A stretch of 64,000 bases of DNA. Source: Fasciolopsis buskii (taxonomy: Eukaryota > Platyhelminthes > Trematoda > Plagiorchiida > Fasciolidae). Position numbers and translations under genes: made by a program. Of this stretch, positions 3,469 to 51,097 are shown piece by piece. Position 1 is the first letter of the stretch; each line of letters starts with the position of its first letter. Location of the stretch: positions 1 to 64,000 of the forward strand of contig LUCM01004767.1 in assembly GCA_008360955.1 (NCBI GenBank), written 5' to 3'. The notes under the pieces are model-generated. The model was not told the origin of the DNA. It worked only from the letters and a program-made list of their open reading frames with translations, and did not search any database.

Positions 3469-6400
3469 CGCTGAAACGATTGACTGGTTTGCTCCCCGAT
3501 GGTATGAGCAGTAACCAACTCGATATCCAACGGGCCCGCCTCGACACGGCGAACGCTACCAAAGAAATCCGTTACGGGTACTGCTTCAATAGGACGCCGG
3601 AGTAAATCAGTTCGATACTTCACAGTAGAATGACACTGAGGCCAGGGGCAAACGGTAAGCTGCGAAAGGACGTTGTTCAGACAACCATTACATTAGAAAA
3701 TTCAAAAGGAAACTTCGATGCACCTAGGAAAGTTAAGAATATTCCTCCATTATTTCAATGCATCCGCACCATTATCATCCAGTGCTAAATATCAGAGTGA
3801 GCCACATGAATGGTTGCCATTCTCACTAAGTTACATGTTGCAATAGAAAGAGTAAATATGAAAATAGACCGGGAGTAGACCTATACAGCGGTGAGAGAAA
3901 AGGATGCCGTCGCAGCCAACAAACAAAATGCAGTCTAACTGCACTTCTTAAATCATTCTGATTTGACGGAAGACGACAATGCGATCACCACGGTTTGCGT
4001 TTCGCTGCCATATCCTTCAGTGTCTCAAGGTCAATGCTTGTCGGATCTTTTGTGCCCCAGTCACGAATAGGAGAGAAACCTACTTTGCCGAAGTTCGCTG
4101 TACACTTTCTCATCCTGCGCTGTCATATCATCTGTTGACCTCCACGTGGCTACTTCCATCCCCTGGGAGGAACGGAAAATAGGGCACGATATGCTAGACA
4201 AGTATTCGTCATACGCAACACATGGCCCAATCAACGAAGCCTACCAAGCTTCATACGCTGTGATAAAGTATTCTCCGAAGTGGTACCCAATACTCGATTC
4301 CTAAGTTGCACACTGCTCACGCAATCACTTCATCCAGTCCTAGAGATACCAAGCAAAAACTGTTGATTAAAACCTCCAAGAGATGAACATCTTCAGCACG
4401 CAAGCTTCATGTTTTGCAACCATACAAGAAAACCGAGCGCACCGTGGTACAGCTTTTACATGACGTGCTCAACGCATAAGTGTAGTGGGAGTGTACCATT
4501 ACCACTAGGGTCCATTACCCAGAGGAAGGAACCGGCGACCGTAATCCTGAAACGTGGAGTGGCATACAACCATATGAGGTCTCATTAGGTCAGATGTGGT
4601 AACTACTCGGGCACACAAACTTTCAACTCTGATGAAATATGAAACCGGCGCTGCAAGTGCTTCAGTCCAGCCTACGTCAGTGTACACTTTGCTTATCGCC
4701 CAGACATGAGACCCAACAGGCGGTGGCAATTACTCAGAAGAAGTAGCTTTGCAACGCCGTCGCCGCTCTGGTCCCCAGGAGCAAAGGCTCTAACATTCTA
4801 GAGGTAGCAGTAGTTTATTTAACACACAACTTTTAAGACAGTACGGTAGGTGGACATTGCACCTTACTCACTATTTACGCATAAGACGGAGATGGGCTTA
4901 TCCAGTTTTGTGCAGACACTTTTATCCCCGTCTAGTATGAGCTCCCGACATAGTTCGCGTCGCACAACGAAATAACGCTCCAACTCCACAGGTAATCCGA
5001 GTCAGGTCGACATTGTGGTAATAAGCTACCTTTGGAGAGGTTCTGTTCAAAACTGCAATCCCTGCTGGTCTACGTACGTGAAATCGGGTCATGCGTTAGT
5101 TTTAATACAATGTCTGTGCAGTTCGTCGCGAAGCTCGCTGAGCCATACAGCTACAGGCTGACATGGATGTTCGTATTAGGGATGAGCATAAACTCAGGGG
5201 AGCTGAGAACTCCGGCGAGCACCAACGTAGGTGAGCATAGGCCAGGCACTGAGCAACAGGTTTTACCAGCGGTCCTAAATCCTACGTCCATCAAATACAC
5301 TGGGTCTCTCGAGAGTAGCTGAGTGTAACGGAGCAAAAACTAGAAGTAGGTGAGTAAGGTGGGACGACACCAACAACGTCAAGTGACGAAAAGCCTAAAG
5401 GAGGACCGTGAAAACTGGTAGGTTGAGGTGTCCGAAGAAATGGGATTCACAGCTGCTTCAGGTAACAGTCAAAGACATCAAGCTTACACGCAACACAAAT
5501 GGGCCAAGAACTTCGATTAGTGAAACGGTATGTGATATGAACGGAGAGCCTTTCCTTAGCATACAACATTGTCTGGACATCTAAAGGAGCAGTTTAGCTG
5601 ACCATGCACTAATGTGGTTACTCCAACGTTACCAACTGCGAATCCGTTTCAATCATCAAACGGAATTAGGAGTAGAGCACAACATTTGTCCGATAGGGTG
5701 GGGAAAATCGACTGGTTCAAAACGAACTTTGATCTGTTCTTTCCAGGATCCGTGAACATACTTCGATGAAAGCATTCACTTCCTCGCGCCGGGACAGTCG
5801 GTAGGAGAAGCGTGTTCCGTTATTGTGGAACGAGTCACTGATTGTATCCATGTTCAAGAAGGGAACACGCGGTGATCGTAGTCGTCATCGGGGGACCATT
5901 TTAATTCCGACTGTCAACAAGGTTTTAGCTTCGACAGTACTGCACCGTTTGACACCGGTTCACGACGGTAACATCCACGAACAGCAAGTCGGATTTTTCC
6001 CACGTCGAGGATGCATCAACTAAGTTATCATACTTCGCCATCTACTTGGAATGCTCCATCCAGACGCACCGTCACATGACAGTCGTTTTTTCTCAATTTA
6101 GAAGGGGCCTATAACTACGACGACCCAACAGTGCTGATCAGTGTACTACATCGAGAAGGTACGCCAGAGAAGTTCGTAAACTTGCTGTGAGCATTATGCC
6201 CACGTATTTCTGATTCTTTAGGGTACGTGATGAACTTTCAAGTTCACTCTAAACGATCTGTGGTGTATGACAACAACGTTCCATCTGTCTTAGTTCAACC
6301 TTGCCATCAACGAGATAATTTAAGATGCTTCAGGAGGTCTCCAGGATGCATGGGTCGGACGGGAACGGAGAAAGGTTGTTACTTAGATTACTCCGACAAC

Positions 6401-9400
6401 GTTGTCCGCTTGTCCCATTCTGCGTACCATGTGCAAATTGTACGAGAAAGACTGTTTAGATCAGCAGCTCCACTAGCGTATGTGATCTCCACCCTCAGAG
6501 TGTACATTTCTGTTGCAAGACTGAAGGACAGTAGCCCCGAACGTGGTGCTCGATGAGGAGCCAGCCAATTTTCGGCGCTTCGTTCACCACGGAAGCCGTG
6601 CGCTCGGTTTTCTTGTATGGTTGCAAAACATGAAGCTTGCGTGCTGAAGATGTTCATCTCTTGGAGGTTTTAATCAACAGTTTTTGCTTGGTATCTCTAG
6701 GACTGGATGAAGTGATTGCGTGAGCAGTGTGCAACTTAGGAATCGAGTATTGGGTACCACTTCGGAGAATACTTTATCACAGCGTATGAAGCTTGGTAGG
6801 CTTCGTTGATTGGGCCATGTGTTGCGTATGACGAATACTTGTCTAGCATATCGTGCCCTATTTTCCGTTCCTCCCAGGGGATGGAAGTAGCCACGTGGAG
6901 GTCAACAGATGATATGACAGCGCAGGATGAGAAAGTGTACAGCGAACTTCGGCAAAGTAGGTTTCTCTCCTATTCGTGACTGGGGCACAAAAGATCCGAC
7001 AAGCATTGACCTTGAGACACTGAAGGATATGGCAGCGAAACGCAAACCGTGGTGATCGCATTGTCGTCTTCCGTCAAATCAGAATGATTTAAGAAGTGCA
7101 GTTAGACTGCATTTTGTTTGTTGGCTGCGACGGCATCCTTTTCTCTCACCGCTGTATAGGTCTACTCCCGGTCTATTTTCATATTTACTCTTTCTATTGC
7201 AACATGTAACTCAGTGAGAATGGCAACGCTTAGTGTGGATTTCCCTGCTGTTTAATTTTGAATGATATTGGTCATGATTCTGTTCGTGTAAACAGAAACT
7301 CTTTAATAAAAGTTTGACACGCCAGCACAAGAAATTCTCCATCCTACGCCACTTGATACCATAGAAACTGCTAAGACCCAGGTGGAGTAATACGGTGTTT
7401 TCAACTTTCCGGTTTATCACGGTTTGACGGTACGTTAGATGACCTTAGTATGACTCCATTTAGCTGCTTATATGCTTCGAACTGACGACGTGCAGCCTCC
7501 GAATTTCTGTTAATTTTGGAGATTTTGACCAATACTCCCTGCTTTTATGATGGTTAACTACAGATATCCTAACTGCATGTGACCGCTGAAATCAAGCGAA
7601 GCTCAGCCACAGGAAATCCTTGCATAACTTCTGAGTTTTTGAAATGTCCAAATAACCTTAAATAAGACCCCACATGCACAGGTGAATACCACTTTAATAC
7701 TAGTATTGATATCCTTCCAAGCTGACTTTTGCACCCTTATTAGCTCAAGAGGAATAAACTCTACAAAATCCAATTTCGTAGGATATCCATTGTATCATAG
7801 AGCAAAGGCGTTAATATTAGCGAACCGCTGGCTCCCAAATTAGTTGAGTAAACTGATATCCTGCTTTGAGTAAAACTGGCGTACGTTGACTAATAAGGCT
7901 TTATACTAACGTTTTGATGACTCATTAGAAAACATTTCAAATACGCCATCGTTAACCACAATTTGTGGTACTTAAGCGATAGATACAGAGATTACTCCAA
8001 TAGGTTGAAAAAGATAAGTGTTAAAGACTTACAAATTGATCCATGGTCTTGCTGCTATTTGGTTCGACGGTCTTGAGGAATTCCGCAGCATAGTATGAAT
8101 AACGGTCAGACATGAAAACACCAATATCGTTGTCCACATGCAACTGAAAATCAGAGATAAGTGATATGCATATGATGCAATTGAGAGCCTCGTCACACAA
8201 TGTAATCATTACTCCTAAACCTGGTTACAAGTTGGATTAGATGCTTTCTTCTTTAAATACCACCCCGGAATAGTAACAAACATGAGGATTCACGTGGCCT
8301 GACTAGTAAGAGGTGTTAAATCTTTATTTCAGTTAGAACAAATCTGAAAGAGACTATCCAGCCTAGGGTGCTCCCAGATAAGCCAAAAGGCGGCAGACAT
8401 GAAACTGGATAGGAAGTACCCATTCTTCTTCAGCGTTTCATTGGAAAAGACACCGGAAGATGAATGAGCTGCAGTCCTAATTCCGAACAGCAAAAGATGC
8501 CAGCAGCATTGATGATTCTAAAACTCCATTGGTTTCATAAACTTTTGCTGACTAATCCAAATGTTCAGGTCGTGACTACTTTACCATAAGTAGATAATAA
8601 CGACTGATAACGAACTGCTTTCGACTTACAAGCGATCAGCGGTTTGTATAAAAACATGATGGTTATCACGAAAATCAACCGGGCTACATATCTGGACCGA
8701 TATTTGCACAAAGCCCGGATTTTCGGCCAAGTAGGGATGATGAGAAACGGAGAAAGCGAAAAAAACTCACGGATAACGAATCCTCACCAACAGCGCTACT
8801 TCCAATGGTGATCACGTTCGGAGAATAGACTAAGAGACCCATGGATTCAGCCTGGCATGTTTCAGCGATAAACAGAATCTCGTGGTACCTAAAGATCAAA
8901 ATGAATTCCCGATATTCAGCGTAAGATCAAGAAGCAAATGTAATGAACAGAAAATATCCCAAAACTACGTTAAGAGCAGGAAGTTTCGCTAGAATCATCA
9001 TAATATGTTCTTGCGCAGATTTCTACAATTTTTAAGTGCTTTAGCTGAAAAATTGATAGAAACCTATTTCGGCATTTCCCTGAATCAGATGAGTCTTTAC
9101 ATCATCTTCTGGCACAGTGTGATCATTCGAATGAGATGGGAGACCAGAAACTGTCACCGCAGTATTGGACCCACCCAATGTCTGGGAGACAGCAATAGCT
9201 AAATATAAAAAGATTCAGAGCGTCCATATCGCTAACAACGGCAGAGGAAATAAAGCGAGAGTTTAACAATAGGATGTAATTGCAAAATTCACAACCAAAT
9301 GAAACCTACCTCAGACGCATTCCATATTACAAAACGTCAAACTTTAGGAGGTCAAAGCATTAGCAAAACCGCATACGAAACCTAAGGAAAGCAAACTCAA

Positions 9401-12400
9401 CAACGAATCTTATACCAGAAAAAAGATGGATCACACGTGTTTAAGTGTCAAACGAACGATAAAGAACACGAAAATAGAAGCAACCCGCATAAAGATGAAG
9501 CAAAACGGTTACTAGATAGCAAAATAAAAAATATTGTTATGTGGTTGTGAAAACTGAAATAAATCCCACCTCGTGGACAGTTACCAACACTCGAAGAGAA
9601 TCCCTCGAAACGATCAGTGACGCATCCTAACTAACGGACCACGGCTGACTGGCACGGCATAAAAACGAAACCAATTGAGGATGTTCCAGTATTAACTTTG
9701 ACAAGCATGTCGCGAAACACGGATGAACAAAAGGTTCAATGCAACAGGACGAATGCATTAGGTAGCAGTATTTACTTACCTAGTGCTGGAAAGAGCCTAT
9801 CTGTTTAGATTTCCATAACCAGTAAAATTTTGAACGGTGTAACTATGAGTAAAAAGTCAAAATCATAATAGAACAGTATTTGATTTTAAGGGCAAACTAA
9901 GGTGGGCTCTCCTGTAATTCCGCTTCTAGCACTAATGCGGAAGTGTAATATAGAAACATTCACGATCTTTAATTTGTTCTTTAGACTTGGAGAGAACACC
10001 ACAGCCTCAACAGATCACGAAGAACAATTAGCAAAAGCAAAATACCCTTCACCGCCCGTAAAGATAATAAATTTCTAGGGTTACGTCTCGTAAGCCCGTA
10101 CGCCTATAGTCGGCCATTCAATATTTATCATTCTAAGGAGTGACATTGACACATGAGCAGTCTACCAGCCAATATTTAACCAAGTTGAATCGAACCGAAA
10201 AAACATGGACTTTGATTTGGCGGTAAACAGCGATTCGCCGTTTCCCGGCTCGTTACCTTGTATTTTTCTTGTTACTTCGAAAATCGAGGTCAAGACTGCG
10301 AATTTATCTCCTCACTGATACCGCGAGCCACATAGATTATGTGGTCTCCCTCCTTCACTACACTTAAACTTCAAGCATGTAATAAAAAATAAAAAGGTGC
10401 AAACGATATAAACTTTTTTTTACCTCAATAACGACTGTGTCGAAAGCGCTTCCGAATCGACATAGATCGTGGTAACAACAAACAGGTGCAGCATAGCCAG
10501 AACTCACACAGACAGCACCAGTCCCCCAACTGAGAGCGATAGTTCAGGTCATCACTCCTGCCAATCGGGTTAACACACCCAGAGGGAGGTCTAAAATAAC
10601 GAAAGCGAGTGTTCCGCACACAGTCGAATCGGCCACTCCATTGGTTAAGGTTTTCTTAGGTCTCTGCCATATCATCAGCTGGCCATCTCGACTTCTCTTC
10701 CTAAAACTGACTTCCTCGGAGTACAGCATGCAATAAGGCAGACAATCTGTGGGTACGCGCAGAACATGTCCCAACCACCTTAACCTATTCTGATTCAGTA
10801 CCTGTTCTGAAAATTGACCCCAATGAAGTACTTTTTTTCCTAAACTCGCAGTCACTCGCAAAACTCTTCCACCATATTCCGTCAATATTGCAAAGACAAC
10901 GGTATTCAAACACCAAAAGTCTTCGCACATCTGTCCTCAGCAGCCATCTTTCTTAGTCGTATAACGGGGCCGACGATCCAAAAATGCAGATCCATGTGAA
11001 CTGTGTTATATGTTACGCGGAATAATTCAATGTGTAGTATTAACGCTCAACTCACCGATGACGCTTATTTATTAAGCGTTGACGTCCGATAAACAACTGA
11101 GAACCAGTGCGAGAGACTAGGATGTTTGACGCACAGTCGTTTATCCCGGATCCCTGTCCCAGTTAGGATGTGAGTGGTACATAGCACCCGTGATTCCTAG
11201 CAATACTGAAACAGCGGCACAGTGCTTCCATGGTGTTTCAATGGCAAGTTGAGGGTTGACAGAGTATGACGAACAACTTAACGTAAATAGAAAACAGCGG
11301 ACAGTTGTCGACCGGGACAACAACGCCAAAAAATCACTACTTGAAGACAGATATCCAGGTTCGAGAATCTCCGAGATAGTTACTAGCTTACAAGTAGCAC
11401 CAAAATAAACTTCAGAGCAGATGAGGACTAAGTAAATTCCAACAGCCAGTTGGTGGAAAACTACCGGACGGAACTTTACGACCATAGAGCGGTGCGTCCA
11501 AGTTGTTCTCTAACCAACCTGTCAGTCACACTGAGATATGTCTGCTGACCGTTAATTATTCGTTATCACTATTATTATTATTACCACTATTTACTTTGCG
11601 AACTGCAAACCATAGACTGAGAGGTGGAACAAATAAGCATAGATGTACTCAAGGAAAATGAAGAACTAATGTGGACTGGAAAAACGAATTAACAAAAGTA
11701 AATTAATTTAGGTTAAACATTATAGCTGCAAATCACCGATGCAAACCAGGGCATTAGTGAGCAAATTTGACACGTCTTAAGCGAAATTGAAAAGCACTGC
11801 GTTGTCCAATGAAGCATGATTTCCGTGCACTCCGAATGCCTTAATAAAGTCAGAGCTCAACGCATCAAACTCCGAGTTGGTCACTTGCCTTGAACACATC
11901 CAATGGCACTATCAGATGATTGTGGGTATCAGAGAGACTCTAATGAGAAAGTCCACTTGGTCAAGGTGTTTCCGTCAGTGTAGGGACAAAGATGAGGGCA
12001 CGGTATTCACTATCGGGTACTCAGTCTAGAGATTAACCCCAAGCTGTTTCTATTTCTTTACTATCTCTTCCGCACTGTTTTCCCCCTCTTGCAGACTCTA
12101 ACGTTATCTGACTTGTGCTAATATACACATAGTTACACTCAACAGAAGCCCAATTACGACAATACCAACATGTTTTAGAAAGCATATGCTTAATAAAGCT
12201 GAGTGCAAATAACATCTGCCAACATTAAAATCAAAGAAGAAAATCTCCCCCTGAAACAAAGTAACATGCTAGTACAATGAAATCAATTGACCTTCATTGT
12301 GTACCTTTTCTTCTGCCACATTTGTTCGATTGCATCGGCTAATTCGCTATTAGAAAGTTCGCTGTCATCCTGGAATTTCAAGAAACCGTCACCTCCATGG

Positions 12401-44160: not shown

Positions 44161-45020
44161 AAAAAAGGTTCTGAGAAATGAGGAACCCGACGTGATTAGC
44201 TAACCAAGTGAGTCTTCATTCCTTTTTGCAAAAGCCCCGTTTGTCTGTTCTCACGAGTAAATATTGCGTCTCATTTTTGTGGCGAATAGCTTTCCTGCGT
44301 TGATTTCTACTGGCTGCGTTTTTCTATGGGTAGTTTTCAGCAGGTGTATGTGCATATATTATATATGTTGGTATATTTCTGGAATATACCGAGAAGTATG
44401 CTCAGTTGCATGATAAAAAGTTACAGGGATATTACAAGCCACACTGAACACATAAGTAAACATATGGGTACAAAATGAGGAGAAATAATAAACCTGGAAA
44501 TTTAAGAGGAGCACTGTGTTTATCCACACCAATGGTGGGTATCGCAGGTGCAAAGTTCAATTTTAAGATGGCGGCGGTTGTGGAATTATGTTCGGGTATC
44601 GACGAAACATCCAGCCGAACGAAACGGCCATGTTTTGCGGGCATTCAAATCGTTGGACGCAACTTATCCACCCACGATGACTGATAAACACCAACTGTCC
44701 ACCCGGAGATAACTGGTAAGGGTTGGTGTTAAATCTCAGCTGCTGTTAGTTTGCAACGTGGTGAAAAAGTGATGAATCAGAAGGAGCAAATCTTGGAGGA
44801 TAGTATTGATGTTATTATTTACAGAAAAATAAAAGACGTCTATTTGGCATGCCAAACCCATAAAATGTATTGGCTGTAATAGTGAAAATTAACTTGCTGT
44901 GTTGCATATTTTTATGAATGGCCGCAAAATTGAAAACGGTGTATAAATATCTATTTGCCCGATGACTGTGAAAAAGTTGTATGAATATGTATAAATTACA
45001 CATATATACGTGTGCACCAA
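44161..45020. other. Unassigned
   Basis: A short plus frame begins at a good-context ATG (aagatggcgg) at 44568 and runs 39 codons. It has no supporting splice or domain evidence. The rest is AT-rich. Confidence 0.35.
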
Positions 45021-46260
45021 GGTGATGCAATATTTGTAAATATGTTTGTTCCTTGATGTTTGTATAAATTTAGTTNGATAAGTATATGCGTAAAGCTATT
45101 TCATATATCTAAATAGTGATAATCATATGCATGTAAATGCAGATATATATCAGTCTATATATACATATAAAAATATATACATGTATAAATAAACAGATGC
45201 GCATCTATAAGTATATAAATAGCAGTGCGCCTAAAAGCAATAATAAACACCAAGTTATCTAGTACCCACCGCAGGCATGTTGAGGCTCGAACGTAAAATT
45301 TCAATAAGTACATGTGTGAAATAGACACATACGTACATGAAAATGTCTACAAATAATTTCAAATAAACAAATACCCACACCTAAATCTCTGTATATGAAG
45401 CTATGCACGTTCCCGCTATACATGTATATCAAATACGTTGTTGCATCGACATGCACAAATTACGTAATGAATGAATGTTCATAAACATTTGTTGCCCCAT
45501 GTGGGAAGACTATATGCATATATCGGTATGGCAATTAATGTCTACGCATGCGACGATTTCCCACATAATGTGACGCATTATTTTCTCGTTCTTCGCCCGT
45601 TTACCCTTAATCGTATGACATATGAATATATTGCATTTTGCCTCGTAAGGGAGTTATACTGATCTTAAGTGCCCGACGGCAAAACGTGCGTCAACTCTGG
45701 CAGCCTCAGGGTCATTTCTATCCCAACCTGCCTTTAGTCGGGTATATGTCTAACGACACCTATAAGCATCTTTAGACCAACGCAAACCTATTTCTGCCTC
45801 AGCATACGCTTCTAACATTTGCATGCGTACAGTGGACTAGTTTCACTACTGCCAAACGAATGAGCACCAAAACCCCCACCTTTGTTGCGCAGGTGAAAAA
45901 AGACTCAATTACCAACAACCTAATGCAAACAATGAAGCCATAACAGAAACAAGCGATTTTGGAAATCGGTGCTGGTAATCGGATAGTCGTGGCCCCGAAG
46001 GGGGCCGCGGTGCCGTTCACATCATTCCCGTCTCTCCCGCGGTCCTTGTTCCTTGCACTTCCGTCGTCTTCCGTGGGCCCCCGGGGTCATCTTCATCCTC
46101 TTTGTCCATCCTACGTCGTCTTGGGCTCTTCAGGTCTACCTGCAATAAAAATGGGGAATATAAATATTATTATTGCCTACCTTTTGCTGATAGGCAATGC
46201 ACACAGATGTAAACTCCTTGGCCCGAGTAGTCGGCGCAATACGAGTGAATCCAATGTTGG
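45021..46260. repeat. Inverted repeat 2, left arm
   Basis: Reverse complement of 48703-49942 over 1240 bp. By eye I find one substitution near 45250, one inside ccaatgttgg at the inner end, and an N at 45076. The outer 650 bp is AT-rich. The inner part is an inverted copy of the PHD gene 3' end. Flanks differ completely and I see no target-site duplication. Confidence 0.95.
46111..46260 (-). pseudogene. Inverted partial copy of the PHD gene (exons 4-5)
   Basis: By mirror coordinates this holds the second half of PHD exon 4 (46181-46260), the 41 nt intron (46140-46180) and exon 5 with stop (46111-46139). The first zinc-ligand cysteines and all upstream exons are missing: at 46261 the sequence switches to CR1-like DNA. 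Splice signals are preserved in the copy. It is a truncated duplicate, not a gene. Confidence 0.9.
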
Positions 46261-46545
46261 TCAGGAATGCAATTTGTATATATATAAATCACATGTAAGA
46301 CCTTTTTTGGACTACTGTTCCATCGTGTGTTCAAACATGCGGCAGAGTGACAGACTGGAGATCGAGAATCTTCAACGAACATTTACAAAACGACTTCTGG
46401 GCTACTCTCCCTCGATAAACTACATGAAATGTTGCGCAAAACTACACCTCGATCCCTTATCACTGCGTCGAGTTCAGCCCAGCCTCTCCTTTTTTAATAA
46501 GGTTATTGGTAAAATGTGTGCGTCTCCGCATCTCAAGTAAGGAAT
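46261..46545 (+). mobile_element. CR1-like reverse transcriptase thumb fragment
   Basis: Frame from 46262: KSHVRPFLDYCSIVCSNM, IENLQRTFTKRLLGY, then LHLDPLSLRRVQ and FFNKVIG. These are the standard post-palm blocks of CR1-like elements, open to a stop near 46540. It begins exactly at the inner edge of the left arm of inverted repeat 2, so the junction may be an insertion or rearrangement breakpoint. Confidence 0.85.
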
Positions 46546-47190
46546 ATCTCTTCCTGTGGCTTGCCACACGCATCGAGGCCACATAATCTGATGCCCAACG
46601 CTTGCGATTCTTGAGCGGAAAAGTCCGCCCAACTGCCCATGTTTACTGCTGGAGCCGCCCGTGGCTAAAATGCCCACCTTGTTGACATCCAATCGCAACG
46701 ATTGCAGCCATACTTAGGTTCCTGTTTTAGATGCCGCCACCGTTGTCTACCGCGAACATCACTCCCAAGATTCGCCTCGACAACAGTGGCTATTAGTATA
46801 TCAATAATTGCTATCAGCTAGGCCCCCAAAAGCAAACAAATAAGCAAAAAACCCGTTTTTATTTCACATTGGCTTACCAGCGTCAGATATATTATTCAAC
46901 GCATACCATATTAATCCTCATTCGTCTCAATGCCGATGGCATTTCCATTCTTCATGTCTTCAAACATTGGTTAACCAAAACTTTACATCATTCTTCGCCC
47001 CTCCGCGTTTTCAAGAGACTTTTGCCTAGTCTCTTGGCTCCAGGATCCATGGTAAAACTCCATGGTAACATAGGGCATCTATCGGCCATCAGCAGTCTTC
47101 CCGCCAGCTGTTTTGCTCCGTATCGACAATATTTTATCTTGCACTCATGGTCTTCGAAGACTTTCGTCATGGCAGTTTACATTCATGCCC
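46546..47190. other. Unassigned; short minus frame at 46988-47170
   Basis: A 60-codon minus frame starts at an ATG (47170) just below a TATAAAA on the same strand. It begins MTKVFEDHECK and is basic at its end. A divergent transcript is possible but has no domain support. Confidence 0.3.
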
Positions 47191-47191
47191 A

Positions 47192-47362
47192 TTTTATAGA
47201 CCCGTCAAATCCAAATACTGCGGACATACGATAGTGACGAAACTTCCACGTCGAAAATTGGGTCATGTGGATCTAAAAAAGACTTGTTAGAGAAGTGGAA
47301 CAAGTTAATCTCAATCTCCTTGACCTGCTCATTGTGTAAAAGAATGATTTTGGGTATAAATA
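47192..47362. promoter_or_regulatory. Candidate promoter region with two opposed TATA boxes
   Basis: TATAAATA at 47355-47362 on the plus strand lies 43 bp before the PHD gene ATG, the right distance for a start site near 47388. On the minus strand TATAAAA is at 47192-47198, 28 bp before the ATG at 47170. The arrangement would fit a bidirectional promoter, but AT-rich DNA can give TATA words by chance. Confidence 0.45.
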
Positions 47363-47397
47363 CATGTTAAACCGGAAACCACGTTAGCTGCGCCCCC

Positions 47398-48852
47398 ATG
47401 GCTGCCATGACTGTTCGTAGGGACGTGACTGCTGCCTATATAGATGATTCAGAAGTGTTAAGCCGCTATGTTTGTTCACTTTTGTGCTATTTATTCGAAT
47501 TGTCAATGTGATTTTAGGGTTTTTCAGCATACGACGCATGTCATTTTGCAGATATCATAGTGTCATCTCCGGAAATTGGTTCCGAAAGCATCCGCGATCT
47601 CTTCCCGCTTTTTTTCCGTAATATCGCATCAAGTACTGCTGCTTCCACAAGCGTCGTAGAAATCAAAATGGTCGTCGGTAAGTCTGCCACCTTTTCAAGT
47701 AATATTTATTTGCCGATTTCTAAATATAAACTGCCCAGCATTTGTTATGTTGCGTGGAGTTAGCAGGCAATACCAGGTGGTAGGTAGCTGTCTCCAGCGC
47801 AACCATTCCTTCCATTGGTCTCATGACCGTTATTACGAGCGCACTTAGCTGATCGATACTGCGAAGTGATGTTAGCAGATGCGACCCACCAGCTTAACGG
47901 CTGTGGGTACGTTCTTTGGCATGCTACGGTAGTAGACAATAATGGGTTAGGTCGGTCAGTTTTTGTGCTTCGCTCCCTAACGAAAGCGCAGCAGGGCGAT
48001 TGTTGCCAATAAGGATGTTGCCCGTGACGGGTAAGGCTAGGACGATCATCGTTTGCCGCAGCTTGGCGCAATTGAACGCCTTTCAAGCTGCATGCCCGGA
48101 AGCTGGTGTAATATTTTGTCGGTTTCATATCTTCATGGACACGCGTCACCGCTGCGGTAGCCTTAAGGTAGGTGTGGAAGGGGACGGGAAGCGCACTCAT
48201 TAGGACATTTACGTGTTTTCATTGACCGTAAATGTAGAAGCATCACGCGTTTGTCAGAGCAACGGTGACATATGGCTACGTTGACAGGGGCGGATGAAGA
48301 ATTCTTCATGATGCCCACAGAGAACCACGCAGAAAATAGTGCATTCATCAGTAACATCGTTTGCATTATTGGGACAGGGAGAATTAGGAAGAAGTTTGAA
48401 CTGATGCCCAGCACGTCCTCATCCGTTCCGTTGCCTGCGTCTTCAAAACGCAAGGCTTCCGGTGCTCCCATGGATACCGACGACGTTGATATACAGCATG
48501 TTGGTGATCCCTTACAGTTAGTAAAATTCGAGAGGCATGCCGTCATGACTTAAGATGGCTACAGCCTGCAGAAGTTGAAGAAACGCAGGCAATCGGGGCC
48601 ACCACCGTCACTAGCCACACAGGACCTTTGCGGCGCCTGCAGATTGGAGCGGCCCGTGGTGGATTTGGACGAAACACCAGGATGGGTGCAATGTGATGCA
48701 TGCCAACGTTGGATTCACTCGTATTGCGCCGACTACTCGGGCCAAGGAGTTTACATCTGTGTGCATTGCCTATCAGCAAAAGGTAGGCAATAATAATATT
48801 TATATTCCCCATTTTTATTGCAGGTAGACCTGAAGAGCCCAAGACGACGTAG
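47398..48852 (+). CDS. PHD-finger protein, 5 exons, 234 residues, family unknown
   Basis: Exons 47398-47469, 47518-47677, 48288-48520, 48572-48782, 48824-48852; introns 48, 610, 51 and 41 nt, all GT-AG and phase-consistent, with no stop over 705 nt. Residues 24-155 have no recognised domain and include a Ser/Pro-rich part. Basic clusters SSKRKASG (129-136) and KLKKRRQ (156-162) suggest nuclear entry. The C-terminus is a full C4HC3 PHD finger: C175, C178, C196, C199, H204, C207, C218, C221, with GWVQCDACQRW typical of chromatin-reading PHD domains. The last loop (10 residues) is short and Tyr takes the usual Trp place before C218. A TATA box lies 43 bp upstream. The intron 1 and 3 sites are chosen by phase and could shift. 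CR1 elements can carry PHD domains in ORF1, but four introns argue for a cellular gene. Confidence 0.72.
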
Positions 48853-49942
48853 GATGGACAAAGAGGATGAAGATGACCCCGGGGGCCCACGGAAGACGAC
48901 GGAAGTGCAAGGAACAAGGACCGCGGGAGAGACGGGAATGATGTGAACGGCACCGCGGCCCCCTTCGGGGCCACGACTATCCGATTACCAGCACCGATTT
49001 CCAAAATCGCTTGTTTCTGTTATGGCTTCATTGTTTGCATTAGGTTGTTGGTAATTGAGTCTTTTTTCACCTGCGCAACAAAGGTGGGGGTTTTGGTGCT
49101 CATTCGTTTGGCAGTAGTGAAACTAGTCCACTGTACGCATGCAAATGTTAGAAGCGTATGCTGAGGCAGAAATAGGTTTGCGTTGGTCTAAAGATGCTTA
49201 TAGGTGTCGTTAGACATATACCCGACTAAAGGCAGGTTGGGATAGAAATGACCCTGAGGCTGCCAGAGTTGACGCACGTTTTGCCGTCGGGCACTTAAGA
49301 TCAGTATAACTCCCTTACGAGGCAAAATGCAATATATTCATATGTCATACGATTAAGGGTAAACGGGCGAAGAACGAGAAAATAATGCGTCACATTATGT
49401 GGGAAATCGTCGCATGCGTAGACATTAATTGCCATACCGATATATGCATATAGTCTTCCCACATGGGGCAACAAATGTTTATGAACATTCATTCATTACG
49501 TAATTTGTGCATGTCGATGCAACAACGTATTTGATATACATGTATAGCGGGAACGTGCATAGCTTCATATACAGAGATTTAGGTGTGGGTATTTGTTTAT
49601 TTGAAATTATTTGTAGACATTTTCATGTACGTATGTGTCTATTTCACACATGTACTTATTGAAATTTTACGTTCGAGCCTCAACATGCCTGCGGTGGGTA
49701 CTAGATAACTTGATGTTTATTATTGCTTTTAGGCGCACTGCTATTTATATACTTATAGATGCGCATCTGTTTATTTATACATGTATATATTTTTATATGT
49801 ATATATAGACTGATATATATCTGCATTTACATGCATATGATTATCACTATTTAGATATATGAAATAGCTTTACGCATATACTTATCTAACTAAATTTATA
49901 CAAACATCAAGGAACAAACATATTTACAAATATTGCATCACC
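48703..49942. repeat. Inverted repeat 2, right arm
   Basis: Begins in PHD exon 4 just after the codon for C199 and runs through exon 5 into 1.1 kb of 3' flank, half of it AT-rich. The inner edge is a self-complementary 10-mer, ccaacgttgg. The spacer between the arms is 46261-48702 (2442 bp) and contains the rest of the PHD gene. Confidence 0.95.
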
Positions 49943-50256
49943 CTTTTGAATTGGGACAATGATCTTGATGGGGAAATCGCCAAAACTTAAGGAAAGATTA
50001 AATTGATTTCAAATTCGGTGCTATGTCCTTGGAGCAAAATCTGTCACCAGAACCAGCAGCACGTTTGATTACTTTCAACATATCCTCGTCCATGCCTTCC
50101 GAGTCCCAAATCTGTTGAGTTGTTTTTGAACTGGATTTCGAGAATTGCAGGATAATTAGCGGAGCTATCTATTTTAGTCGGACCGCTGGTTGTCTTCTTG
50201 CAGGTGTTGCCCTTTAAGTCAGGGATGTCAAAGTATTTTCGCGCATTGAAAACGCG
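49943..50256. other. Unassigned
   Basis: Between the right arm and the first recognisable gypsy gag residues. No LTR or primer-binding site is evident. Confidence 0.4.
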
Positions 50257-50465
50257 TTGAAAAAGCTGATCCAGAAGTTGCTTCGGGGGGTCAAGGTTGG
50301 GAATAAAAGGCGCCGAGAGCTACTGCAGGGTATGCGGCTTCTCAGGTGCGCAACGTTCGGTGACGACCCGGCAGTAATACAGCTGTGGCTTCAACGGCTC
50401 CCGCCACATCCAGCCCCCTTGCTTAGTACTGTCTGTATGTATTCACTAGAAGATAGTTGAAATCG
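50257..50465 (+). mobile_element. Ty3/gypsy gag fragment
   Basis: The frame contains RRRELLQGMRLLR, then LWLQRLPPH and SLED. This matches the C-terminal half of CsRn1-type gag, where a short R-x-x-x-LL-x-x-x helix precedes LFLQRLP. No zinc knuckle is present; flatworm CsRn1-like gag proteins often use another Cys/His pattern. Confidence 0.6.
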
Positions 50466-50784
50466 TCAATGACAACAAGTCGCTCTATAGCTCGGGTGTT
50501 TTGGCATTAAACACTTTATCTTCCCTCAGAGTCGCATCCTCACCTCCACAGGAAGAATTAACAACTATTTTTTACGAGGATTGACGCATTGCTACAGCGA
50601 CCTTTCCTGATGTCGGCGAAAGGGTACTGTAAGTAGCATAATCGCTTTGGTAGTTTAGCAAAGGGTATGACCCCGAGTGCACATTCCGAAGTAGGAATCA
50701 GTGGAGTTAGGCTGCCCGTTAGTGGTCGCGACACCCCAAGCCTGGCTATCTACCAATTGTCGCCTCCTTTACTTCAAGGGCTTC

Positions 50785-51050
50785 ACGACTAAAAACTATT
50801 CTTGGTGAATACCGGTGCTAAGGTTAGTGTAATTCCTCGTGATCAAAAATATTGGGCCGCTGCTCAGGCCGAGAACTAAAGGCTGCGAACAGCACCGATA
50901 TTCACACGTAGGAACATCGTCCTCTCACTCTCGATCCAGGTCTGGATCGTAAATTTCGTTGGGTGTTCATAACTTATTCTACTCTTAGCACAGATTTCCC
51001 CAACAATTTGACCTGCTGGTCAACGCTCGGCACTGAAAAATAGCAGAACC
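50785..51050 (+). mobile_element. Ty3/gypsy aspartic protease fragment
   Basis: KLFLVNTGAKVSVIPRD at about 50791-50841 is the retropepsin site, with N where the catalytic Asp of DTGA belongs. After a stop, RKFRWVFI and NNFDLLVNARH follow in the order seen in CsRn1-like proteases. Sequence homology ends just before the taataataata at 51099. Confidence 0.75.
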
Positions 51051-51097
51051 GCAAACGTCGCCCACCGTGACCGGCTCGGATGCCGTCGTCAATCAAG

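Follow-up and report, generated by a model that had tools for sequence, protein, structure and literature searches.

The window, a stretch of 64,000 nucleotides of Fasciolopsis buskii DNA, contains at the locus described here a broken copy of a likely Mutator-like DNA transposon lying in LINE sequence, and 1,240 bp of this copy are present twice in opposite orientations, as a left and a right arm (Table 1). Pairwise alignment of 45021-46260 with the reverse complement of 48703-49942 gave 1240 columns, of which three differ (N45076/A, C45250/T, and T46255/C), that is, 2 substitutions in 1239 comparable bases, and the flanks diverged immediately on all four sides, outside and inside the arms. 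A second listing of inverted repeats in the window returned this pair as the only long one, with a spacing of 2442 bp. Chance is ruled out for arms of such length and identity. The first base of the right arm is the third of a cysteine codon (48701-48703) within the PHD-finger open reading frame (ORF), and a micro-intron (48783-48823) falls within the arm; a preliminary description of this DNA had given the same coordinates, the same two bases and one N, the start inside the PHD finger after a cysteine, and the inclusion of the micro-intron, all of which we reproduced.

The segment of LINE reverse transcriptase (RT) next to the left arm matched another LINE of the window (52976-52725) at 51% over 45 amino acids, and the RT stub past the right arm corresponds to sequence lying about 770-830 bp upstream of that 46262 segment. 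Among the matches listed for the neighbouring repeat, several begin at query base 65 and many stop at 1154. Another ORF of the window had Schistosoma reverse transcriptases as its best named relatives (57-59%), and the Rfam and tRNA scans gave no matches.

Table 1. Features in and around the inverted arms (positions in the window)
Feature	Positions	Strand	Basis
LINE 3' segment beyond transposon 3' end	44354-44594	-	homologous in 5/20 fetched copies (L009, L014, L016, L018, L023)
Presumed old 9-bp target duplication, one copy, CGAACATAA	44586-44594	-	7/9 match to 47221-47229
3' end of likely Mutator-like element with terminal inverted repeat (TIR); left arm only	44595-45020	-	homologous in 18/20 copies; continues from arm
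Left arm, element sense minus; rarer base at both substitutions, N at 45076	45021-46260	-	arm alignment, family comparison
Junction J1, arm end/LINE RT segment, one unassigned base between	46261		sequence comparison
C-terminal part of LINE RT ORF	46262-46564	+	76-83% to 6/20 loci; element order in 5 of those 6
LINE 3' region, upstream of transposon	46572-47229	+	family comparison
Presumed old target duplication, other copy, CGGACATAC	47221-47229	+	match to 44586-44594
Likely Mutator-like element, 5' TIR (47230-47250) and body to right arm end	47230-49942	+	family order, TIR
Putative transposase fragments	47827-48203	+	ORFs 47827-48009 and 47943-48200, domain profile matches
PHD-finger ORF piece, in-frame stop ahead	48554-48793	+	ORF and domain profile
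Right arm; family order breaks at 49942/49943 (junction J2)	48703-49942	+	14/20 copies align across start (48663-48763)
LINE RT stub, 65 bp	49944-50008	-	matches in 4/5 RT-bearing loci tested (L018 being the exception), best E 2e-7
Neighbouring unrelated repeat family, bounds LINE stub	50007-51096	+	80 matches listed

The sequence carrying the arms had been taken for a PHD gene. Its 3' half, however, has dozens of relatives that are 74-83% identical (of 455 candidates 40 were scored, giving 54 matches). We compared 20 fetched copies, all paralogues from one genome, and these share an order corresponding to 46262 through 48203, 48202 through 49942, and then the reverse complement of 45020-44354, with gaps that vary by copy. 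The junction 48702/48703 is spanned by unbroken alignment in 14 of the 20, the 3' piece 44595-45020 is found in 18, and an intron is kept in all. The TIRs read GATAGTGACGAAACTTCCAC at one end and the reverse complement of GTGGATGTTTCGTCAATACC at the other; both element ends were located in 12 of the 20 loci, one or both being missing in the remaining 8. In 10 of the 12 testable loci the element is flanked by direct repeats of about 9 bp that are specific to the locus; the mean score was 6.5, whereas 2000 shuffles averaged −1.7 and reached 1.0 at most.

Domain profiles gave matches below their cut-offs throughout. ORF 47827-48009 matched the ZSWIM1-3 RNaseH-like profile PF21056 at 26.7 bits (cut-off 27.2), ORF 47943-48200 matched the MULE profile PF10551 at 17.2 bits (cut-off 27.6), and copy L013 reached 26.7 bits with the latter profile; three of the eight pieces scanned for transposase domains had no match. 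Both PF10551 and PF21056 occur in P0009, the one database relative at E ≤ 0.001. For the PHD ORF, PF00628 scored 22.4 bits (cut-off 24), comparison with PHD structures gave weak matches (best E 5e-4), and a protein search with a query whose middle was garbled gave no match at E ≤ 0.001; the C4HC3 ligand spacing is visible in the sequence. Because of the TIRs, the flanking repeats of about 9 bp, the weak MULE transposase matches, and the intron in 20 of 20 copies, the PHD unit is likely a Mutator-like DNA transposon; the first three of these, with the dispersed relatives, led us to reject a host PHD gene. The antisense or hairpin RNA proposed earlier would, if made at all, have no single unique gene as its target, because the unit has so many relatives.

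A PHD finger is also known from ORF1 of CR1-type LINEs (PMC4120745). We set this identity aside because the unit lies 3' of the reverse transcriptase and is bounded by TIRs and TSD-like repeats of its own. In 15 of the 20 copies the fetched stretch shows no RT segment upstream of the unit (L009 and L012 among them begin at a contig end), which also counts against it.

TIRs are missing in some MULE groups. The target duplications of MULEs are given as 8-11 bp (PMC6446971), and the present element resembles MULEs in its 9-bp target duplications and its putative MULE/ZSWIM RNaseH-like transposase fragments. Table 1 of the same source lists Rehavkus with a PHD finger, a minisatellite, and arthropod or annelid hosts, and Curupira with a flatworm host, SWIM, and no TIR (PMC6446971). 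Our element would share the PHD finger (PF00628 below cut-off) with the former and the flatworm host with the latter, likenesses that concern listed features; in contrast to the families as listed, the present copies are broken and their domain scores fall below the Pfam cut-offs.

When the arms were placed in the family order, the left arm ran from 45020 to 44595, through the element's own 3' end, and on into LINE sequence to about 44354, a continuation absent from the right copy; the element's 5' end (47230), with LINE reverse transcriptase ahead of it, preceded the right arm. Judged by this order, the left copy is headless and the right copy tailless. The earlier view of the left copy as a headless antisense copy was therefore correct as to the missing head, but it is not merely a pasted copy, since it carries the 3' terminus of the element (44595). 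The left arm carries the rarer family state at each of the two substitutions (G 13, A 3, T 1 at one site and A 14/14 at the other, gaps set aside). The best relative of the arm among the 20 copies was 82.5% identical (ungapped), the copies being 79-89% alike; because the arms differ at only 2 of 1239 bases, their identity would be later than the insertion. Because no scored relative of this copy comes near the likeness between the two arms, the duplication is recent, the arms have been kept alike, or the assembly is in error; these are the causes named in the preliminary description, and all three remain live.

We lean towards the view that the arms are parts of one old broken transposon copy nested in a LINE, the middle of which was inverted locally with 1,240 bp left at both ends. 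The starting state would have been a single minus-strand LINE carrying the transposon, with one break at 45020/45021 in the transposon and another in the reverse-transcriptase gene; the 1,240 bp could have been filled in twice, through staggered ends or through template switching in replication, with about 0.8 kb of the LINE lost at the other break. Such an event would be much younger than the insertion, unless gene conversion has kept the arms alike. The RT stub directly past the right arm lies in the original (minus) orientation; it is only 65 bp long, its alignments are gapped, and it has no match in L018. At the element ends, 47221-47229 and 44586-44594 match at seven of nine positions, as expected of one old insertion into the LINE. 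If the 2.4-kb spacer is misoriented in the assembly, the same data would describe an inverted 1,240-bp patch replacing about 0.8 kb.

Inverted duplications at the breakpoints, one-sided cases included, are described for staggered-break inversions of Drosophila subobscura (PMC5080602). As in those, one sequence stands in opposite orientations at both ends of the presumed inverted segment, and the arms, the family order, and the RT stub fit such a flanking inverted duplication; those are chromosomal inversions, whereas the present one would lie within a transposon and its LINE and span about 3.7 kb, with the loss at the other break. Several findings count against a local inversion: the flanking repeats of the window are only 7/9 identical; L016, L018, and L023 have homologous LINE flanks but differing TSD-like repeats; the left arm contains one N, 55 bp inward of its outer end; and near-identical local duplications recur in the assembly, which could indicate a technical cause.

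Were the cause technical, there would be one true transposon copy, of which 1,240 bp had been entered into the assembly twice, and the assembler or gap filler would have created the junctions 46260/46262 and 49942/49943. We regard this as unlikely but a serious possibility. The N at 45076 fits it, although that N is in exact register with the opposite arm and, in the stretches read, no N lies in or beside the arms of the other four pairs. An overlap of k-mer length might account for the 55-bp distance to the N, but the register of the N argues against contigs having simply been joined. The near-identical pairs themselves favour an assembly error: among 14 local pairs (299,757 bp scanned) 4 were near-identical, with a fifth found later and none between 87% and 97%; in several the arm differences gather at the arm ends; and one, on C31, is a direct pair, 915 bp long, in sequence that is otherwise nearly unique. 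On the other hand, the C1585 arms have three interior differences, and two pairs have diverged flanks in register, which misjoining does not easily produce. The latter two look like gene conversion, with an identical tract inside longer diverged homology. On C4958 a pair of LINE copies in opposite orientations shares 99.6% identity over about 2,186 bp, and short stretches outside are 82%, 81%, and 74% alike; between 3813-4442 and 6598-7227 of the window there is one difference in 630 bp, followed by 16 in the next 45 outer bases.

By analogy, the arms at 45021-49942 might stem from an old rearrangement and have since been rewritten to match. Like gene-converted inverted repeats they are of kilobase length, near 100% identical, and a few kb apart; unlike the two pairs just described, they showed no diverged homology in the alignment of their flanks. 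Because no homology continues beyond the arms, a conversion signature would be invisible at this pair. Close pairs that are not homogenised also exist (C6284, inverted, 75%; C3802, direct, 82%), and we consider this origin improbable. Twin priming at LINE insertion, in which one part of an element is likewise inverted relative to the remainder, or two independent head-to-head insertions would account for two opposed element pieces that touch at their inner ends; both seem to us highly improbable. Twin priming should leave a short overlap or none, with the inverted piece beside target DNA, whereas the overlap here is 1,240 bp, against a median of 12 bp given for human L1 5' inversions (PMC12016303), and the right arm adjoins the LINE RT stub, with LINE sequence on both sides. 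A search for a LINE target duplication at about 44354/49943 found none convincing, only an 8-bp chance-like match. Both readings are further opposed by the 3' and 5' termini of one DNA transposon lying in separate halves with matching flanks, and by the absence of a near-identical source copy among the 40 candidates scored.

These results remove a false lead, in that they lend no support to a host PHD gene accompanied by a mirror copy able to form a hairpin. Copies of the PHD-bearing element could be miscalled as host PHD genes, and recognition of a likely Mutator-like flatworm family with a PHD finger, TIRs, and 9-bp duplications may aid annotation. That several local inverted pairs of a single assembly are near-identical would mean either a systematic fault in the assembly or that inverted repeats are being actively rewritten. 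We suggest, with considerable doubt, that nearby transposon copies in this genome are rewritten time and again into almost perfect inverted repeats of kilobase length, through gene conversion or arm-to-arm template switching in replication; if true, long palindromes would be continually formed from transposons that have otherwise drifted 20-25% apart.

The inverted duplication had been described as two arms of 1240 bp each, 45021-46260 and 48703-49942, and we recovered it exactly so; the only differences between the arms were N45076, C45250/T and T46255/C, and the left arm carried the rarer state at both substitution sites. The claim that it starts inside the PHD finger after a cysteine also held, as its first base is the last of a cysteine codon within a PHD-like ORF at 48554-48793; this ORF scored 22.4 bits against PF00628, under the cut-off of 24. 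Antisense or hairpin RNA from transcription through the arms, as proposed with the original description, would be a purely hypothetical product. The single N at 45076 belongs to the left arm, exactly 55 bp from its outer end; the right-arm base opposite it (T in element sense) was seen in 0/20 relatives, of which 19 had A and 1 had G.

The arm is repetitive DNA. A scan of the assembly that contains the window (703 Mb, 6974 contigs; the window is C2847:1-64000) gave 54 arm matches among the 40 scored of 455 candidates, and in this sample the longer matches besides the pair itself had 74-83% identity. Twenty copies were fetched with their flanks. In element sense, the relatives ran 46262-46564, 46572-47843, 47841-48203, 48202-49942, and then the reverse complement from 45020 to ~44595 or 44354, with gaps that varied between copies; ~0.7 kb at 48203 and ~0.85-0.89 kb at 46567, each present in several relatives, are missing from the window copy. 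Alignment continued straight across 48702/48703 in 14/20 copies, and the 3' piece 44595-45020 was present in 18/20. These alignments and the shared 3' piece indicate that the right copy is in family order over 48702/48703 and broken at 49942, and that the left copy is in family order over 45021/45020 and broken at 46260.

The ends of the unit carrying the PHD-like ORF are inverted repeats of ~20 bp. Both ends were found at 12/20 loci, 10 of which had locus-specific direct repeats, ~9 bp long (range 7-10); the mean score was 6.5, versus −1.7 in 2000 pairing shuffles (shuffle maximum 1.0). The 41-nt micro-intron (48783-48823) was kept in all 20 copies, as expected under DNA transposition; three had gaps of 3-6 nt, and the GT and AG ends were present in most. 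ORF pieces upstream of PHD matched MULE and ZSWIM RNaseH-like domains weakly (best score 26.7 bits for both, against cut-offs of 27.6 and 27.2), the domain scan giving no match for 3/8 pieces, and the sole database relative at E <= 0.001 has both domains. In Table 1 of PMC6446971, 9-bp duplications and a PHD finger are given as features of the Rehavkus group, and Curupira is entered with flatworm hosts; compared by such listed features, our unit resembles Rehavkus in its ~9-bp duplications and its PHD finger (weak score). Leaving clade aside, the unit is likely a Mutator-like DNA transposon. At three fetched loci (L016, L018, L023) homologous LINE sequence flanks the transposon on both sides, yet the TSD-like repeats differ; is this a shared insertion, or were there repeated hits on one LINE site?

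Judged from sequence, the arms appear to be parts of a single transposon copy rather than of two. Of its termini, the 5' one (47230) belongs to the right half and the 3' one (44595) to the left, and the 9-bp flanks, CGGACATAC and CGAACATAA, agree at 7/9 positions. Outside these, the right half has a LINE reverse-transcriptase C-terminus (46262-46564) and the left half LINE 3' sequence (44594-44354), each in order in 5/20 copies; RVT_1 was over the cut-off in L013, L014 and L016. Adjoining the right arm, 49944-50008 (minus) matched reverse-transcriptase sequence that lies ~770-830 bp upstream of the segment at 46262; this held for four of the five RT-bearing loci tested (best E 2e-7), with no match in the fifth, L018. 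From ~50007 onward the sequence belongs to a different repeat family.

We also searched for local repeat pairs of at least 150 bp, ~50 to 15,000 bp apart, in 299,757 bp (contig positions 1-104000 and the 20 loci), a sample chosen around the transposon family and not random. Four of the 14 pairs found were near-identical, namely 45021-49942 and the first, second and fourth pairs of the table; the other ten were 64-87% alike. The table's first pair appears to be a gene-conversion tract shared by two old RTE-like copies. From its pattern, the C4958 pair also looks like gene conversion: 6/8 differences lie <=16 bp from its ends, and the surrounding homology drops to 82% over 96 bp, 81% over 105 bp and 74% over 150 bp. 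On that contig a LINE with a PHD-transposon sits inverted within another LINE. The C1585 pair, a fifth from outside the scan, was picked for the equal scores of its two matches; its arms have an internal deletion in common relative to the window's LINE. Elsewhere in the genome the C31 sequence had only partial matches (66-77%), and the C127 pair is possibly another recent local duplication. Both close control pairs examined lacked homogenisation (C6284, inverted, 75%; C3802, direct, 82%). Two further inverted pairs are visible, on C2556 and C3089.

Repeats and local pairs on the window and on other assembly contigs (C numbers)
Feature	Coordinates	Fetched loci	Details
Inverted pair, window	3813-4442 / 6598-7227		630 bp, 1 difference; wider homology 3768-4442, 6598-7272; next 45 outer bp, 16 differences
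Inverted pair, C4958	277737-279922 / 281215-283400	L033, L011	~2186 bp, 99.6% alike, 8 differences
Inverted pair, C1585	4487-7757 / 8974-12244	L035, L034, L036	3271 bp, 3 differences, 1216 bp apart
Direct pair, C31	41766-42680 / 48616-49530	L018	~915 bp, near identical, flanks a PHD-transposon copy
Direct RTE-like matches, C127	89438-90558 / 96855-97975		same query end points, similar scores, 7.4 kb apart
Dispersed repeat, window	50007-51096		among 80 listed matches, several start at 50007 and many end at 51096

The best explanation, probable though far from certain, is an inversion with a duplicated end that followed insertion of one nested transposon copy. A minus-strand LINE carrying the transposon would have been the start, and 46262-49942 would have been turned round with 1240 bp retained at both ends, an arrangement that would account for every piece. 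The other isomer, with the spacer (46262-48702) flipped, would be that LINE with ~0.8 kb replaced by an inverted patch of 1240 bp. Drosophila inversions with inverted duplications, one-sided ones included, are described in PMC5080602. Twin priming or independent insertions, taken jointly, are very improbable; for human L1 5' inversions PMC12016303 gives a median overlap of 12 bp, against 1240 bp here.

The 20 arm copies were 79-89% alike among themselves (ungapped) and the one closest to the window arm reached 82.5%, the two window arms differing at 2 of 1239 comparable bases. Because arm identity far exceeds copy identity and the left arm has the rarer state at both sites, the arms would have become alike well after insertion, unless the assembly, or the set of 40 scored candidates, lacks a near-identical source copy. 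Such late likeness could also come from an old rearrangement whose identity was maintained by conversion, which we consider unlikely, or be the product of an assembly error, a doubtful reading but a more serious contender. Local-pair identities were either under 87% or over 97% (over 99% inside tracts), and this gap is compatible with conversion that is still active, with events of very recent date, or with some technical cause.
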